A model generated the notes under the pieces. That model was not told the origin of the DNA. It was given only the letters and a program-made list of their open reading frames with translations, and did not search any database. Positions 20,116 through 29,814 of a stretch of 64,000 nucleotides of DNA are shown here, piece by piece (the first letter of the stretch is position 1; every line of letters starts with the position of its first letter). Origin of the DNA: Thiohalobacter sp. IOR34 (GTDB lineage Bacteria > Pseudomonadota > Gammaproteobacteria > Thiohalobacterales > Thiohalobacteraceae); contig NZ_CP128988.1 of NCBI RefSeq assembly GCF_030406045.1, positions 2,329,438 through 2,393,437 of the forward strand, read 5' to 3'. A program made the position numbers and the translations under genes.

Positions 20116-20679
20116 ATGCGCCATGCCCTCGCCCCTGCCCTGCTGATCCTCGGTCTCTGCCAGAGCGCAGCCATCCAGGCCGGCTGGAATCCCTTCCGGG
20201 AGGAAGCCGCCGCCAGCCGGCCAACGGCCAAGGACCACGAGGTAGCCGCCGCTATCGCCGCCTTCCGGGCCAAGGATCCGGACATGAAGGTGTTCTTCGA
20301 CAAGGCCTATGGCTATGCGGTCTTTCCCACCGTCGGCAAGGGCGGCATCGGCATCGGCGGCGCCTACGGCAAGGGTGAGGTCTTCGTCCGCGGCCGGCAC
20401 GTCGGCTACACCTCGCTGAGCCAGCTGACCATAGGCTTCCAGTTCGGCGGCCAGGCCTACAGCGAGATCATCTTCTTCAGGGACAAGGCCACCATGGAGG
20501 ACTTTCAGGCCGGCAACTTCGAGTTCAGCGCCCAGGCCTCGGCGGTGGCAGCCACCGCTGGTGCCTCGGCCGACGCCGACTACAGCAACGGCGTGGCCAT
20601 CTTCACCCTGGCCAAGGGTGGACTGATGTACGAGGCCTCGGTAGGCGGCCAGAAATTCAGCTTCACGCCGCGGAAATAG
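20116..20679 (+). CDS. SYLF/Ysc84-domain lipid-binding protein, exported
   Basis: 187 residues with a signal peptide ([20 protein letters not shown]). The SYLF domain follows: [34 protein letters not shown], then [16 protein letters not shown] and a C-terminal [15 protein letters not shown]. Ysc84/SYLF domains bind phosphoinositides in eukaryotes; the bacterial role is not settled. Its last 17 bp overlap the convergent ubiV 3' end. Confidence 0.9.
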
Positions 20680-21613
20680 GCGCCACACCCTCCGCCAGCG
20701 CCGCGGCCGCAGCCTGCTCGATGCCGGGGCGGCCGAACCAGTAGCCGTCGCAGCTCGCCCAGGGCAGCAGCCGCTGCAGGCTGGCATTCGCCTCCTCGGG
20801 GCTGCGCAGCCCGCGCAGACAGTCGTCATAGAGGCCGATCACCTCGGCAGTTCCCCGCGAGTGGGGGCTGATGCGCAGCACATCCACCTTCAGCTCGACG
20901 AGCTCCGGCAGCACCGGCAGCAGATTGCAGACGCTGGCCGACTGGGTCTGAATGCCGTTGATGTTGAGGAACGACTGGTCCTCCCGGGTGCGCAGGGTCA
21001 GACCATCCGGGTAGTCCAGGCAGCGGAACTGGCAGTCGTCCTTGGGCAGGTTGTGGGCCCGGGCCGTGAAGCAGCGGGCCGAGTAGGCGAGCGGCAGCCG
21101 GCCATGGACGAAGACCTCGGTCTCCACGCCGGCCGGCCGGTTCTGCTGCATCTCCGCCAGGGTCTCGCGCGACAGCTCCACCGGGAACAACCAGCGGCGC
21201 AGGCCGCTTTCCGCCAGACGCTGCAGGGCTCGCGGGTTGTAGATGTTGACGCTGGGCCCGGTGGCGAAGGGCCGCCCCTCCAGGAGGTTGACCGCGGCCA
21301 TGTCGTTGGCCTCGACCATGAAGCGGCCGTTGTCGCACAGCCGGCGCAGGGTCTTCAGCTCCGACTCGGCCTCTATCAGCGCCAGGGTCGAGATCACCAC
21401 CTCCTTGCCGGCATCGCCGAGCCGCCCGGCCAGTTCCAGCCAGTCGTCGGTCTTCAGCTGACGGCGCTTGGCGCACACCGCCTCGCCAAGGTAGACGATG
21501 TCCACCGGCGTCTCGGCCATCTGTTCATAGAACTCGAACACCTGCGCCCGCGGCCAGAAGTAGAGCAGCGGGCCGAGCGACAGTCGGGGTCTGTGTTGGG
21601 TCGTCATTGCCAT
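20663..21613 (-). CDS. ubiV: Oxygen-independent ubiquinone biosynthesis protein UbiV (U32 peptidase-like)
   Basis: 316 residues, U32 family. The four Fe-S cysteines match the UbiV pattern: one in [10 protein letters not shown] and three in [19 protein letters not shown] with spacings of 13 and 4, as in E. coli UbiV. UbiV and UbiU form a complex that hydroxylates the ubiquinone ring without O2. Its start overlaps the ubiU stop by 10 nt, giving an operon with ubiU and the radical SAM gene. Confidence 0.94.
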
Positions 21614-22599
21614 GGCCTGTGGTAGGCCCCCAGGGTGGTCTGTGTGCCCTCGGCGACCTTGCCGAGCTGGGACAGCCAGTCCGACTGGGGAATGTAGTTG
21701 TCGGGATTGCGCTGACAGGCATCCAGGGCCGCGCGCCAGACGCGGGTCACCTGGGCCACATAGGCGGGACTGCGCTGGCGCCCCTCCAGCTTGACTGCCG
21801 CCACCCCGGCCGCCGCCAGCTGCGGCAGTATGGCCAGGGTATTGAGGCTGGTCGGTTCCTCCAGGGCGTAATAGGTGCTGTCACCAACCTGGAAACGGCC
21901 CTTGCAGAGGGTCGGATAGCCCGGGTTCTCATCCGCGGTGAAACGGTCGATGAGGATGCCGTTGAGGCGCGTCTCCAGGCGGTCGTCGATCTCGCGCCAT
22001 TCCACCGCCTTGGCCGGAGAGCAGGCGCCGTAGGTGTTGGGCGACTCGCCGGTGGCGAAGGAGGACAGCAGGCAGCGCCCCTCGACCATCACGCACAGGC
22101 TGCCGAAGCCGAACACCTCGATGTCCACCGGGCTGCGTTCGATCAGCGCCTGCACCTGGGCCAGCGACAGCACCCGCGGCACCACCACCCGCTGGATGCC
22201 GAAATGCCGGTGGTAGAAGTCGATCGCCTCGTAGTTGGTGGCCGAGCCCTGCACCGAGAGATGCAGTCGCGCCTCGGGCCAGCGTTCGCTGGCATAGTCC
22301 AGCACGCCGATGTCGGCGGCGATCAGCGCATCGACACCGAGCCCCACGGCCTCGTCCACCGCCCGCTGCCAGCGCGGCCAACCGGCCGGCTGCGGGTAGG
22401 TATTGATGGCCAGGAACACCCGCGCCTGGCGTGCGTGGGCATATTCCACCCCCTGGCGCATGGCATCGGCGTTGAAGTTGAGCCCGGCAAAGTGGCGCGC
22501 GTTGGTGTCGTCGCGAAAGCCGATGTAGACGGCATCGGCGCCGTTGTCGACGGCACTCTTCAGGGCATGCAGATTGCCTGCTGGACAGACCAGTTCCAT
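21604..22599 (-). CDS. ubiU: Oxygen-independent ubiquinone biosynthesis protein UbiU (U32 peptidase-like)
   Basis: 331 residues beginning [27 protein letters not shown], the UbiU/U32 hallmark. Cysteines likely to hold a 4Fe-4S cluster are in [17 protein letters not shown] and LCKGRF. Works with UbiV in prephenate-dependent, O2-independent ring hydroxylation. ATG at 22599 is preferred to the TTG at 22602; aggtg is upstream. Second gene of the operon led by the radical SAM gene. Confidence 0.94.
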
Positions 22600-22625
22600 C
22601 AATCACCTCTCAGTATTAGCCCGTA

Positions 22626-23546
22626 TTAGCCCGGCCAGCCGACGGCGGCCGCCATCTGCCGCCGCGCCAGCTCGCCCTCGATGGCGTTCAGCACCGCCCA
22701 CTTCCGGCTGCACCAGGCCGGTGCCAGCAGCAGCCGTGCCTCGGCGGTGCCGGTCAGGCGGTGAAACACCACCTCGGGAGGGGTCTGCTCCACCAGGTCG
22801 GCGGCAATCGACACATAGTCGTCGAAACCCAGCGGCCGGTATTCGCCGCGCCGCCAGGCATTGGCCAGGCGGGTGCCCTTGACCACGTGCAGCGGGTGCA
22901 GCTTGAGGCCGTCGACGCCCAGCTCCAACACCCGCTGCAGGGTGGCCAGCGCCCGTGCCCGGCCCTCACCCGGCAAGCCGACGATCAGGTGGGTGCAGAC
23001 CGGGATGCCGCGCCCGCGGGCGGCGCGCAGGGTGTCGCGATACTCGGCGAAACCGTGGCCGCGGTTGACCCGCTGCAGGGTGTCGTCGAAGGCCGACTGC
23101 AGCCCCAGCTCCAGCCACACCTCGTAGCCGCGTTCCCGGTAGCCGGCCAGCAGATCGAGCACCGCCGGCGGCACACAGTCCGGGCGGGTGCCCACCGACA
23201 GGCCGACCACGTCCGGCTCGGACAGGGCCGCCTCGTAGAGCCGGGCCAGGTTGCGCACGTCGTCGTAGGTGTTGGTATAGGCCTGAAAATACGCGATAAA
23301 ACGCCGCGCCCCGGTGCGCTTGGCGAGCACCCGCCGGCCCGCTTCGATCTGTGCCGCGATCGGCGGCGGTTGCCTGGCATTGGGATTGAACGAAGCATTG
23401 TTGCAGAATGTACAGCCGCCGCGGCCCTTGCTGCCGTCCCGGTTGGGACAGGTGAAGCCGGCGTGAATCGCCAGCTTGTGGACCCGCTCACCATAGCGGC
23501 GCAACAGATCCTGGCCGTAGGTGTTGACGTACTGATGCAGACTCAT
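22626..23546 (-). CDS. TIGR01212 family radical SAM protein (YhcC-like)
   Basis: 306 residues. The Fe-S motif is CPNRDGSKGRGGCTFC (CX7CX2C spacing typical of TIGR01212/YhcC). Conserved blocks include FIAYFQAYTNTY, VGLSVGTRPDC and WLELGLQSA. The substrate is unknown. First gene of an operon with ubiU and ubiV, whose promoter region holds an FNR-type site shared with pdxS. The C-terminal ...GWPG plus stop comes from ccgggctaa, which resembles the end of the dispersed element, possibly a remnant that trimmed the 3' end. Confidence 0.9.
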   Translation of the reverse strand: MSLHQYVNTYGQDLLRRYGERVHKLAIHAGFTCPNRDGSKGRGGCTFCNNASFNPNARQPPPIAAQIEAGRRVLAKRTGARRFIAYFQAYTNTYDDVRNLARLYEAALSEPDVVGLSVGTRPDCVPPAVLDLLAGYRERGYEVWLELGLQSAFDDTLQRVNRGHGFAEYRDTLRAARGRGIPVCTHLIVGLPGEGRARALATLQRVLELGVDGLKLHPLHVVKGTRLANAWRRGEYRPLGFDDYVSIAADLVEQTPPEVVFHRLTGTAEARLLLAPAWCSRKWAVLNAIEGELARRQMAAAVGWPG

Positions 23547-23579
23547 GCTCCGCCGCCCTGCTCGCCACGCCGGCCGGAA

Positions 23580-23591
23580 TCTGACAGACTC
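23580..23591. repeat. Solo end of the GAGTCTGTCGGA element
   Basis: tctgacagactc followed by ctg differs by one base from the right terminus of the MITE-like element at 27458-27617. No partner terminus was found, so this may be a remnant or chance. It lies between the radical SAM start and the FNR-type site. Confidence 0.4.
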
Positions 23592-23639
23592 CTGTTAAAA
23601 CCCATCGGGATAGATTCTCACTTGTAGCGAAACCAGTAC

Positions 23640-23653
23640 TTGATCCATATCAA
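23640..23653. promoter_or_regulatory. Perfect FNR/Anr-type site in the divergent ubi/pdx promoter region
   Basis: TTGATccatATCAA matches the consensus TTGAT-N4-ATCAA at all ten fixed positions. It lies 93 nt upstream of the radical SAM-ubiU-ubiV operon start and 53 nt upstream of pdxS. On the plus strand a weak -10 (TAAGCT, 23675-23680) would place the site near -41, the class II activation position. FNR/Anr is an O2-labile activator, which fits the O2-independent pathways on both sides. Confidence 0.8.
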
Positions 23654-23706
23654 CCCAACAGACGGGCGCCCCGCTAAGCTAAGGGGTTCCCATTGGAGAA
23701 CCTAGC

Positions 23707-24621
23707 ATGACATCCACTCCGGAATCCCCGGCAAGCGCCGGAGACAGCAGCGATTTTTCCGTCAAGGTCGGCCTTGCCGAGATGCTCAAGGGCGGCGTCA
23801 TCATGGACGTCACCAACGCCGAGCAGGCGAAGATCGCCGAGGCGGCCGGTGCCGCTGCGGTGATGGCCCTGGAGCGCATCCCGGCCGACATCCGCCGCGA
23901 CGGCGGCATCGCGCGGATGTCCGACCCGGCGATGATCCGCGACATCCAGGCCGCAGTCTCCATCCCGGTGATGGCCAAGTGCCGCATCGGCCATTTTGCC
24001 GAGGCCCAGGTACTGGAGGCGCTGGCCATCGACTTCATCGACGAGAGCGAGGTCCTGACCCCGGCCGACGACCGGCATCACGTCGACAAGCACCGCTTCC
24101 GCGTGCCCTTCGTCTGCGGCGCCACCGACCTCGGCGAAGCACTGCGCCGCATCGGCGAGGGCGCGGCCATGATCCGCACCAAGGGCGAGGCCGGCAGCGG
24201 CAACATCGTCGAGGCCGTGAAGCACATGCGCGCGCTGCAGGACGGCATGCGCCGTCTCACCACCCTGGACCACGCCCAGCTGATGACCGCCGCCAAGGAA
24301 CTGGGCGCGCCCTACGATCTGGTCTGCCATGTCGCCGAGCACGGCCGGCTGCCGGTGCCCAACTTCTCGGCCGGCGGCATCGCCACCCCGGCCGACGCCG
24401 CGCTGATGATGCAGCTCGGCGCCGAGGCGGTGTTCGTCGGCTCCGGCATCTTCAAGTCGGACGACCCCCAGGCCCGCGCCGAGGCCATCGTCCAGGCGAC
24501 GACCTACTACAACGACCCGCAGAAGCTGCTCGAGGTCAGCACCGGCCTGAAGAGCGCCATGCAGGGACTGGACATGGCCGATATCCCACCCGACCAGCGG
24601 CTGGCCGAACGCGGATGGTAG
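23707..24621 (+). CDS. pdxS: Pyridoxal 5'-phosphate synthase lyase subunit PdxS
   Basis: 304 residues. Highly conserved: [25 protein letters not shown], the Schiff-base Lys in [11 protein letters not shown], the phosphate loop Lys in [12 protein letters not shown], and [20 protein letters not shown]. It condenses ribose 5-phosphate, glyceraldehyde 3-phosphate and ammonia directly into PLP. Its start ATG follows ggagaa. It overlaps pdxT by 7 nt. This DXP-independent route is less usual in gammaproteobacteria, which mostly use PdxA/PdxJ/PdxH. Confidence 0.97.
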
Positions 24622-25229
24622 TACAGGCAACGATCGGCGTGCTGGCCCTGCAGGGCGCCTTCCAGAAGCATCTCGACATGCTGGCCCGGCTCGACCAGCC
24701 GGCGCGGGCGGTGCGCTACCCCGAGCAGCTTGCGGACTGTGCCGGGCTGATCCTCCCGGGTGGCGAATCGACTACCATGAGCCGTCTGCTGCGCGACACC
24801 GGGCTGCTGCAGCCGCTGCGCGAGTACGCATGCGAGCACCCGCTGTTCGGCACCTGCGCCGGCCTGATCCTGATGGCCGAACGGGTCGAGGACCCCCGCG
24901 TCGAACCGCTGGGGGTGCTGCCGATGCGCGCCGAACGCAACCGCTACGGCCGGCAGATCGACAGCTTCACCGCTCCGCTGCAACTGGCCTTCGACGCGGA
25001 CGGCCCACCCTTCCCGGGCGTCTTCATCCGTGCCCCGGCCGCCAGCGAACTGGGCGAGGAGATCGAGGTACTGGCCCGACACCAAGGGCAGCCGGTGCTA
25101 CTCGCTGCCGGTGCTCACCTGGCCGCCGCCTTCCACCCGGAACTGACCGACGACCCGCGGGTGCACCGCCACTGGCTACAGCGGATCGCGGCAGCCTCCC
25201 GCCCCCAGGCCAGGGCGGCGGCTTCCTGA
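24615..25229 (+). CDS. pdxT: Pyridoxal 5'-phosphate synthase glutaminase subunit PdxT
   Basis: 204 residues, class I glutamine amidotransferase that supplies ammonia to PdxS. Catalytic triad regions are visible: GTCAGL (Cys), and [10 protein letters not shown] (His and Glu). Substrate loop [15 protein letters not shown] is conserved. ATG at 24615 overlaps the pdxS stop. The C-terminal tail (RPQARAAAS) runs past the usual end. Confidence 0.96.
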
Positions 25230-25255
25230 TGTCCGTCCATGGAGGAGACCTGTCG

Positions 25256-25744
25256 ATGAACAGCGCATCCCTGCCCAGCCGGCAACGCACACCCAGCCTG
25301 CCGCCATTGCTCACCTGGCCCCTGGAGTTCCTGCCCCGCCGCCTGCCGGAGGAGGTCTTCGTCGCCGCCCTCAACCGGCTGTTTGCCGAGCCGCTGCGTA
25401 ACGGCGAACTCGACTTCCTGGAAGGACGCATGCTGCAGATTGGCCTCACCGACCTGGGCCGATCACTGCGCATCGGCCTGCGGCAGCGACGTCTGCAGCG
25501 CGGCACGCCCGGCCAGCGGCCGGACATCCGCATCGAAGGCAAGCTCTACGAGTTCCTGCTGCTGGCCACCCGCCGCGAGGACGCCGACACCCTGTTCTTC
25601 AACCGCCGGCTGCGGCTCGCCGGTGACACCGAGCTGGGCCTCTACGTCAAGAACTTCCTCGACGCCCAAGAGCCGGACGAACGCTTGCAGCCGCTGCTGC
25701 GCCTGCTGGAGCAGGCCTGCCGCATGCTGGAGCGCTGGGGCTGA
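25256..25744 (+). CDS. ubiT: Ubiquinone biosynthesis accessory factor UbiT (SCP2 domain)
   Basis: 162 residues. The SCP2-like domain is seen in LNRLFAEPLRNGELDFLEGRMLQIGLTDLG, then IRIEGKLYEFLLLATRREDADTLFFNRRLRLAGDTELGLYVKN in two blocks. UbiT is a lipid-binding protein required for anaerobic ubiquinone synthesis with UbiU and UbiV. A strong site (ggaggag) precedes ATG 25256; an in-frame ATG at 25229 lacks one. The following GNAT gene overlaps the stop, as with yhbT/yhbS in E. coli, supporting the UbiT call. Confidence 0.9.
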   Translation: MNSASLPSRQRTPSLPPLLTWPLEFLPRRLPEEVFVAALNRLFAEPLRNGELDFLEGRMLQIGLTDLGRSLRIGLRQRRLQRGTPGQRPDIRIEGKLYEFLLLATRREDADTLFFNRRLRLAGDTELGLYVKNFLDAQEPDERLQPLLRLLEQACRMLERWG

Positions 25745-26199
25745 TGATCGAGACGGCCGAGCTGGAGCGCGAGGATCACCGTCAGGCGGTCTTCGAACTG
25801 CTCGACCTCTATGCCCGCGACCGCATGGGCGAGGACCATCCGCTGGACCCGGCCCTGCAGCCGGCGCTGATCGACGGCCTGCGACGGGCCGGGGCACTGG
25901 TGCTGCTGGCCTTCGACGACGGCACCGCGGTCGGTCTGCTGATCGGCTTCGAGGCTTTCTCCACCTTCAATGCCCGTCCGCTGCTCAACGTCCACGACCT
26001 GGCGGTCCGTCCGGGCTACCGCGGCCACGGCATCGGCCGACGGCTGCTGGAAAGCGCCGAGGAGATCGCACGCCAACGCGGTTACTGCAAACTGACGCTG
26101 GAGGTACGCATCGACAACGAGGCCGCCCAGCACCTGTACCGCAGCTTCGGTTTCCGCGACTGCCGGCCGCCGATGTGGTTCTGGCACAAACCGCTCTAG
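25744..26199 (+). CDS. GNAT family N-acetyltransferase (YhbS-position)
   Basis: 151 residues with the acetyl-CoA loop VRPGYRGHGIGRRLL and a C-terminal NEAAQHLYRSFGFRDCR. The acceptor substrate is unknown. Start overlaps the ubiT stop (TGATG). E. coli places the acetyltransferase gene yhbS beside ubiT (yhbT), so the pairing is conserved. Stop codon TAG is followed by two more CTAG units and the degraded end of a dispersed element. Confidence 0.88.
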   Translation: MIETAELEREDHRQAVFELLDLYARDRMGEDHPLDPALQPALIDGLRRAGALVLLAFDDGTAVGLLIGFEAFSTFNARPLLNVHDLAVRPGYRGHGIGRRLLESAEEIARQRGYCKLTLEVRIDNEAAQHLYRSFGFRDCRPPMWFWHKPL

Positions 26200-27624: not shown

Positions 27625-27772
27625 GCCTGTCAACACCGCGCCAATCGCGGCCAGGAGGCCGCTCCTACGGGGCATGGCGGCACAATGTGTTGTAGGAGCG
27701 GCCTCCAGGCCGCGATCCCCGGCGGGTCCAGCCACGCCATCATCCGGGGACTTGGTGCAATATCCGGGCTAA
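27625..27772. mobile_element. Truncated CCCGGATATTGC element ending on a stop codon
   Basis: The right terminus cttggtgcaatatccggg is intact and is followed by CTAA (27769-27772), which on the minus strand contains the TAG stop of the c/b cytochrome gene. The interior matches the left half of the 13184 element, inverted, including a GTAGGAGCGGCC pair (27644-27668 and 27691-27716). The other terminus is missing next to the 27458 element. Confidence 0.8.
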
Positions 27773-29730
27773 ACCAGCCCGCGCTGGCTGAAGCCGACCA
27801 GCACCATGATCAGCAGGATGATGCCGACCGCCAGCAGGGTGAAGCCGATGACATGGAAGACGAAGTTGGCGAGCTTCGAGGGCGGGTCCACCAGGTGCTT
27901 CTCCAGCTCGCCGCTGGCCACCAGCCGGGCATATTCCTCCGGCCGCTCCTCCTTGAACTCCTCCAGGTCCCAACTGCCGGTGAACATCACCGTGTCCAGC
28001 GGGAACTTGGCCGGCCGGAAATGGTTGTTGAAGAAGTGCACCACGAACAGGGTGGCGACTGCCAGGAAGGCCTCCACGCCATGGGCGATGGAGGCGACGT
28101 TGAACACCCAGCCCGGCAGGTATTTCAGGGTCACCGGCGAGAACCAGAGCAGCAGCCCGGAGCTGCCGATGACGAAGGCCCCCCAGTACACTGCCCAGTA
28201 GTCGAACTTCTCCCAGTAGGTCCAGCGGTCGAAGCGCGGCTGCCGGCCCTTGCCGAAGAACCAGCGGAACTGGCCCTTCATGTCCTCCCAGTCCTTCCTG
28301 CGCGGCAACAGCGAATTCGGCCCGAACCAGTCGAAATCCTTGTCGCGCAGCACCCGGGCCAGCACCACGCCGCCGTGGCCGAACACCGAGAGCAGGAAGA
28401 TGCTGCCGGCGGTACGGTGGATCAGGCCGAAGGTAGCGGAGCCGCCGACTGCCTCGATGGCGCGCATCGCCCAGTCGGTATCCGGGTACATCACCGCCAT
28501 GCCGGTCAATACCAGGGTCATGACCGACAGCGCCAGGGCCCAGTGGTTGAGGCGCCAGTACCAGGGGAAGCGCTGGAACTGCTTGTCGCTGTGCTTGCGC
28601 TCCGGCTTCTCGCGGTAGGGCACCGAGATGCCACCCCCGCCACGGTACCACTTGATGACCCGCGACTTGTACTCACGATAGAACCAGAGCAGCGAATGGC
28701 CATAGAAGAAGATCAGCACGCCGATGACGATGCCGACCATGAACTTGCCGGTGATGAACATCGCCGGATACTTCTCGAAGTCACTGGTGTTGCCGTGCGG
28801 CTTGTACTGGACGATCTTGTCGCTGGCGTCCTCGTGGCATTCGCGGCAGGTCTCCAGCCGGTTCTGCCCGCTGACCAGTGACAGGGGGTCGTCGATGCGC
28901 CGGGTGTCATGGCCGCGGTGGCAGTCGACGCAGCGCGCCACCTTTTCGTTGCCCAGCCAGGCCAGGGCGCCGTGAGTGGTGGTCATGTAGCTGGTGACCG
29001 CCTTCTCGTGGCAGTTGCCGCAGTTCTTGGTGACGATGCGGTGCGCGCTGAGCCCCTTCACCTCGCTGACCTGATGCGAGGAATGGCAGTCGCTGCAGGT
29101 CGCGCTGTCCCCCTTCCAGGGAGTCCTGATGGCCGCGCCGTGGACCGACTGGCCGTACTCGGCCAGGGCGTCCTGGTGACAGCCGCCACACATCTGCGGG
29201 GAATTCTCGCGATAGGTCGAGGCCCGGGGATCCGAGGAGCTGAACACATAGTGGGCGGTGTGGCAATCGGCACAGTCGGCATTGTCCACCAGCCCGCCCT
29301 CGGCACGCTCGGCATGGATGGAATGGGTGTAGGCCTCGGTCTGCACCACCACCGGCGGCGTCTTCACCCGCCGGGTGATGGCCCGCCCCTTGGGCTTGAC
29401 CCTTTCCCTGATCTGCTGCGGGTCGAGCCGCACGTGGCAGCTGACGCAGTCGACCTTGGCCAATTCGTCCTCGTGCGGCAGGCGTTCGACGTCGCTGTGA
29501 CACTCGACGCAGGCCAGCTCGCCGTGGCGGCTCTCCTGCATCGCCTCGTAGTTGAGGTCCAGCGAGCGTTTGCGGCCCCCCCCATGCGCCCCCTCGGGCA
29601 CGGCAAAGCCCTTCACTCCGTGACATTCCAGGCACTCGGCATCGTCGATGGCGGGCGCGGCGGCGGCCCAGCCGGCAAGACCGCACAACAGGAGTAGTAG
29701 CGAAAGGAAACGCAAGCAGGTTCGAATCAT
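27769..29730 (-). CDS. Inner-membrane multihaem c/b cytochrome (nonahaem c domain fused to cytochrome b), CbcL-like architecture
   Basis: 653 residues. Signal peptide (RFLSLLLLLCGLAGWAAA), then nine CXXCH haem-c motifs (CLECH, CVECH, CVSCH, CADCH, CGGCH, CSDCH, CGNCH, CVDCH, CRECH) in a periplasmic domain. A membrane cytochrome b domain follows, with candidate haem-b histidines in RLNHWALALS, LIHRTAGSIF, VFGHGG and HGVEAF. The order resembles Geobacter CbcL, a quinol oxidoreductase. It likely exchanges electrons between the quinone pool and the octaheme protein encoded upstream. ATG 29730 was chosen for the signal peptide, though its ribosome site is weak. Confidence 0.88.
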   Translation of the reverse strand: MIRTCLRFLSLLLLLCGLAGWAAAAPAIDDAECLECHGVKGFAVPEGAHGGGRKRSLDLNYEAMQESRHGELACVECHSDVERLPHEDELAKVDCVSCHVRLDPQQIRERVKPKGRAITRRVKTPPVVVQTEAYTHSIHAERAEGGLVDNADCADCHTAHYVFSSSDPRASTYRENSPQMCGGCHQDALAEYGQSVHGAAIRTPWKGDSATCSDCHSSHQVSEVKGLSAHRIVTKNCGNCHEKAVTSYMTTTHGALAWLGNEKVARCVDCHRGHDTRRIDDPLSLVSGQNRLETCRECHEDASDKIVQYKPHGNTSDFEKYPAMFITGKFMVGIVIGVLIFFYGHSLLWFYREYKSRVIKWYRGGGGISVPYREKPERKHSDKQFQRFPWYWRLNHWALALSVMTLVLTGMAVMYPDTDWAMRAIEAVGGSATFGLIHRTAGSIFLLSVFGHGGVVLARVLRDKDFDWFGPNSLLPRRKDWEDMKGQFRWFFGKGRQPRFDRWTYWEKFDYWAVYWGAFVIGSSGLLLWFSPVTLKYLPGWVFNVASIAHGVEAFLAVATLFVVHFFNNHFRPAKFPLDTVMFTGSWDLEEFKEERPEEYARLVASGELEKHLVDPPSKLANFVFHVIGFTLLAVGIILLIMVLVGFSQRGLV

Positions 29731-29814
29731 GAGGAGAACTACGGAACAGAGCGGACGGACGCCCGCCAACAAATGCCGGCCGCGGTCCAACCCGGGGACC
29801 GCGGCCGGACCCGG

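Follow-up and report, generated by a model that had tools for sequence, protein, structure and literature searches.

A perfect FNR-type box between divergent mnmL–ubiUV and pdxST–ubiT operons of Thiohalobacter sp. IOR34 probably places pyridoxal phosphate synthase genes behind an oxygen-responsive ubiT promoter

The gap separating mnmL from pdxS in Thiohalobacter sp. IOR34 holds a perfect FNR-family box, and the reading that we consider probable is that FNR binds this 14-mer when oxygen falls, activating in class II fashion the operon on its right and very probably also the operon on its left, and that pdxST was captured by the FNR promoter of ubiT. The main biology, namely FNR control of ubiUVT, is already known, and the new part is modest. 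The window, that is, the whole 64,000-nucleotide stretch of DNA that was analyzed (67% GC), belongs to a genome consisting of one contig (2,961,281 bases, 100% complete) and carries the following features around the box:

20663 to 21613, minus strand: ubiV (NF047965, 412 bits, cut-off 275)
21604 to 22602, minus strand: ubiU, O2-independent ubiquinone hydroxylation (NF047963, 560 bits, cut-off 440)
22626 to 23546, minus strand: mnmL/ytqA, radical SAM tRNA-modification protein, first gene of the left operon (TIGR01212, 381 bits, cut-off 180)
23614 to 23619, minus strand: candidate -10 GAGAAT for mnmL-ubiU-ubiV, 20 nt past the box (relatives have -10-like hexamers at spacers of 21–22)
23640 to 23653, no strand assigned: FNR-family box TTGATCCATATCAA, perfect (sequence match; position conserved in relatives)
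23675 to 23680, plus strand: candidate -10 TAAGCT for pdxST-ubiT-GNAT, 21 nt past the box (several relatives have GATAAT or CATAAT at spacers of 21–23)
23707 to 24621, plus strand: pdxS, PLP synthase lyase subunit, first gene of the right operon (NF003215, 502 bits, cut-off 395)
24615 to 25229, plus strand: pdxT, PLP synthase glutaminase subunit (TIGR03800, 209 bits, cut-off 105.55)
25256 to 25744, plus strand: ubiT, SCP2-domain accessory factor (NF047962, 135.5 bits, cut-off 46.9)
25744 to 26199, plus strand: GNAT acetyltransferase, overlapping the ubiT stop (PF00583; under every NCBIfam equivalog cut-off)

With UbiU, UbiV, and UbiT all over curated cut-offs at one locus, the O2-independent ubiquinone pathway UbiUVT is present. 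The names that the original prediction had given to UbiV, UbiU, PdxS, PdxT, and UbiT were each borne out by NCBIfam models, and its description of both operons as devoted to cofactor synthesis holds for UbiU/UbiV, PdxST, and UbiT but not for the radical SAM gene, which belongs to the MnmL/YtqA tRNA-modification family. Adjoining the locus (window 27769–29790, minus strand) is encoded a large multihaem cytochrome c that includes a membrane cytochrome b-like domain.

The FNR/Anr site first read at 23640–23653 was recovered at that exact place and with that exact sequence: the TTGATN4ATCAA-like box looked for at an FNR-dependent class II promoter is present here in perfect form, as the sole perfect match in the 64-kb window and one of nine in the genome, versus 0.5 expected under a first-order Markov model of the window. 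That it is a chance palindrome without function seems to us very improbable. It is, to be sure, only one 14-bp match, and matches with two mismatches are over-represented in the window (18 vs 6.8 expected, mostly in coding sequence), but the same model predicts only 3e-5 perfect sites in the 160-bp mnmL/pdxS gap, and both the box and its spacing to the -10 are kept at the same genes in relatives.

The FNR/Anr homologue on which the original prediction depended turned out to be a genuine FNR: it scores 302.6 bits against the Fnr model (cut-off 228), aligns over its length with solved FNR structures, and harbors all cluster cysteines (C-X2-C-X5-C plus a fourth Cys in VCEIPF) together with a recognition helix, VETVSR, of the E..SR type. 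One of the perfect boxes overlaps fnr at its 5′ end (longest reading frame), with hisB adjacent and a COX1-domain, CcoN-like cytochrome-oxidase gene nearby; further ones are found next to moaA, a cytochrome d1 nitrite reductase gene, a norC/norB-like pair, and nnrS, and another at a c-type cytochrome gene followed by a NapA-like oxidoreductase gene. Judged by these neighbors, the set looks like the working FNR/DNR regulon of a denitrifier. Two perfect boxes (G000:C1:546917 and 2113613; L017 and L018) have no evident anaerobic neighbor gene, the former being near a fabF-like gene and the latter between rpsP-like and ffh-like genes.

ANR and DNR recognize one common consensus, and the genome also holds CRP and at least two other CRP/FNR paralogues. 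In this regard, it is conceivable but unlikely that the box is functional while its activator is an NO-sensing paralogue of the DNR/NnrR type, or that both regulators share it, in which case the operons would track denitrification and not oxygen itself. One CRP/FNR paralogue without the FNR cysteine motif (G000:C1:2755863-2756603; L139:1364-2104) has a helix, PETFSR, that resembles the VETVSR of FNR and might recognize the same consensus, and several perfect boxes do lie at denitrification genes. However, this paralogue matches FtrB models only, well under cut-off, nine of the order's ten further genomes encode a close FNR orthologue (66–79% identity; in G232 as a fragment only), and in Escherichia coli experiments identify Fnr as the ubiUVT regulator (PMC10470549). 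FNR itself is thus the activator that we prefer.

Taken over the family, the spacing between box and promoter also fits class II activation by FNR. Over 18 promoters (both sides of the window box, the relatives, and the G234 ubiT gene), the average -10 score shows a sharp peak exactly 22 nt past the box, as high as in none of 2,000 shuffles, and this is the spacing expected for a class II activator at -41.5. In the window, where start sites are predicted, the box is centered at about -40.5 relative to TAAGCT and about -39.5 relative to GAGAAT, both hexamers being weak (≤4/6) and 1–2 nt short of the 22-nt optimum. The class II position near -41 proposed earlier from the -10 at 23675 thus agrees with a predicted center that is class II-like, albeit set by the weak TAAGCT. 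A search near the site yielded neither a consensus sigma-70 promoter nor an intrinsic terminator. By its geometry, transcription in both directions from the window box would be possible, neither direction being ideal (spacers of 21 nt on the right and 20 nt on the left).

The poor match and placement of these hexamers, the left one lying further off, and the distance of the left gene start from the box center (100 nt vs 58–72 in the family's other genomes) make it possible, if rather doubtful, that the box drives one operon only, most likely the right one, whose -10 is nearer the register, and that the second operon relies on a different promoter or is no longer controlled by FNR. Yet no hexamer within 45 nt on the left side resembles a -10 better than GAGAAT, a second box is absent within ~200 bp of mnmL, and mnmL-ubiUV has its own box in 9/9 comparable relatives at no more than two mismatches (7 at no more than one). 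We therefore keep to a box that very probably serves both operons.

From a comparative perspective, the order is represented in our collection by 11 genomes of one family, and the relatives are few (six genera) and not independent. A pdxS gene is found in 10 of these 11 genomes, whereas an even draw across the class gave 11 of 229 genomes over cut-off; the trait thus characterizes the clade and is uncommon in the class at large. Among named genomes, a scan with PdxT gave mostly members of other phyla, all lacking UbiT, and a single gammaproteobacterium (L045). In all nine readable relatives of the order (L036–L038, L040–L044 with L138, L137), as well as in the MAG L045, the gene groups are convergent, with pdxS-pdxT-ubiT, or ubiT alone in G234, facing ubiV-ubiU-mnmL. 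The divergent layout with a single intergenic box occurs in the window genome only, and none of the readable genomes of the order shares its gene order. Since the relatives are convergent and mostly carry a separate FNR-like box for each gene group, the single shared box appears to be a feature of the window genome, where a local rearrangement would have joined two 5′ ends (window 20663–26199) and left one box.

Among nine relatives, a box with at most one mismatch is found upstream of pdxS in six and upstream of mnmL in seven, against 2.4% of random 190-bp windows drawn from the same loci (binomial p for 7/9 = 1.5e-10, relatedness ignored). The best boxes upstream of pdxS have 0, 2, 1, 1, 1, 1, 0, and 2 mismatches in L036, L037, L038, L040, L041, L042, L043, and L045, and those upstream of mnmL have 2, 1, 1, 1, 2, 1, 1, 0, and 1 in L036, L037, L038, L040, L041, L042, L138, L137, and L045. 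Upstream of the truncated pdxS of L044 (G231), no box was found (3 mismatches at best). This MAG-encoded PdxS (L044:2440-3153) shows an in-frame loss of ~47 residues right after the conserved MAK lysine, and the MAG also holds PdxJ and PdxA; its pdxS may be a dispensable decaying gene or an assembly artefact.

Presence of the box at pdxS goes with linkage to ubiT. None of 10 pdxS genes lacking a downstream ubiT neighbor (nine from other class members and one from G234, of the same family) has a box with at most one mismatch within 250 bp upstream, versus 7 of 9 ubiT-linked pdxS genes, window included (Fisher p = 7e-4; 7/10 when the truncated L044 pdxS is counted). In G234, pdxST is located elsewhere and has no box, ubiT alone has the box TTGATCTGAGTCAA, and mnmL has a perfect one. 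The simplest reading of these arrangements would be an FNR promoter proper to ubiT, behind which pdxST was inserted; the opposite direction, with pdxST leaving in G234, is possible.

The two pathways differ in what they stand beside. PdxJ, PdxA, PdxH, and the PNPOx_N domain are all missing from the window genome, so that PdxST is the sole de novo route to PLP recognized here and would have to be expressed in air as well, not in anoxia alone. On the same ground, we discard for this genome a role of PdxST as an anaerobic back-up to PdxH or as a stand-in for an O2-dependent way of making PLP, and the oxygen-independent label originally given to the PLP operon does not make it an alternative route here, there being none of these proteins for it to be an alternative to. 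By contrast, two UbiH/UbiI-type hydroxylase genes and COQ7 (Coq7) coexist with UbiUVT; going by gene content, UbiUVT would be the anaerobic alternative to an O2-dependent ubiquinone route, and the label of oxygen-independent alternative fits ubiquinone, not PLP. As ubiquinone has both types of route and PLP only one, oxygen would operate a switch for the former and, for the latter, only a boost above a basal level. An FNR-only promoter for the sole PLP synthase would harm the cell in air, which is a point against the FNR model.

The strict 21–23 nt geometry at pdxS is seen in relatives that retain PdxJ/PdxA along with an intact linked pdxS (G122, G235, G236, and G237), whereas in relatives without PdxJ/PdxA it is shifted off the class II register (G229, G230, and G233) or the box is missing (G234). 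The window genome is the exception, being without PdxJ/PdxA yet not shifted (strict geometry in 4/4 genomes with PdxJ/PdxA vs 1/5 without; p = 0.048, phylogeny uncorrected), and we offer only as a hypothesis that the register of the box at pdxS may track pdxJ loss. Upstream of pdxS in L037, L038, and L042, whose genomes rely on PdxST alone, spacers are 27–28 or no good -10 occurs within 45 nt. PdxJ and PdxA are both found in G122, G231, G232, and G235–G237, but PdxH is absent there by TIGR00558, some having only generic PNPOx_N proteins; their DXP-dependent route looks as if it either lacks the last step or uses an unrecognized oxidase. Thiohalobacter has been reported with both B6 routes, the DXP-dependent one possibly incomplete (PMC9997740).

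In E. coli, Fnr activates both ubiUV and ubiT, which share with the window a divergent layout and FNR activation (predicted in the window) from one intergenic region; however, E. coli uses two separate and less perfect Fnr sites, F1 and F2, the mutation of either sparing the other operon, and its ubiT also has an aerobic promoter (PMC10470549). The window has a single perfect site; its two operons open with mnmL and pdxST, and ubiT occupies the third place in the latter. Across Pseudomonadota, 87% of ubiTUV triplets carry a predicted FNR site, a share that rises to 96% where ubiT and ubiUV are divergent (PMC11707229). FNR control of ubiUVT, invoked by the original prediction, is thus already published (PMC11707229; PMC10470549). 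The regions scanned in the PMC11707229 survey were only those preceding ubiT, ubiU, and ubiV, and pdx genes are unmentioned in its main text, whereas the box here lies upstream of pdxS and mnmL. In Gram-positives, according to work cited in PMC9997740, pdxST is controlled by the MocR-type PdxR, a dedicated pdxST activator that offers a point in common but differs from FNR in regulator family and signal. In the literature searched, we found no paper on ubiT together with pdxS, and FNR control of pdxST was not evident in titles and abstracts of the literature on pdxS/pdxT and FNR or on the FNR regulon and vitamin B6. What looks new is that pdxST stands between an FNR promoter and ubiT and that two divergent operons appear to share one box, versus two boxes in E. 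coli and the relatives.

On this basis, we propose a model whose computed parts are the box, the FNR, the conservation of the box at both operons, the family-wide -10 geometry, and gene content. The genome's FNR would act as an oxygen-labile [4Fe-4S] dimer with the 14-mer as its predicted site; upon a drop in oxygen, it would occupy the box, at about -40 on either side, and recruit sigma-70 RNA polymerase in class II fashion. Expression of the right-hand operon pdxS-pdxT-ubiT-GNAT would then rise, very probably along with that of the left-hand operon mnmL-ubiU-ubiV, which would allow O2-free hydroxylation of ubiquinone in the course of denitrification. In an ancestor of the family, pdxST would have come under FNR by insertion downstream of the FNR promoter and ahead of ubiT, and a basal aerobic level of pdxST would be retained, PdxST being the sole recognized PLP route.

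Such an arrangement would tie oxygen sensing to vitamin B6 supply, a tie that we did not find in the literature searched, and would provide a case of one FNR box apparently replacing two. It also offers a natural comparison of an essential pathway under an anaerobic activator, with pdxST found with or without ubiT and with or without PdxJ. At the scale of this gammaproteobacterial family, we tentatively suggest, as a scenario that may well prove wrong, that the insertion of pdxST behind the ubiT promoter put B6 synthesis under FNR, and that lineages that later lost PdxJ/PdxA loosened or moved the box so as to make PLP in air.
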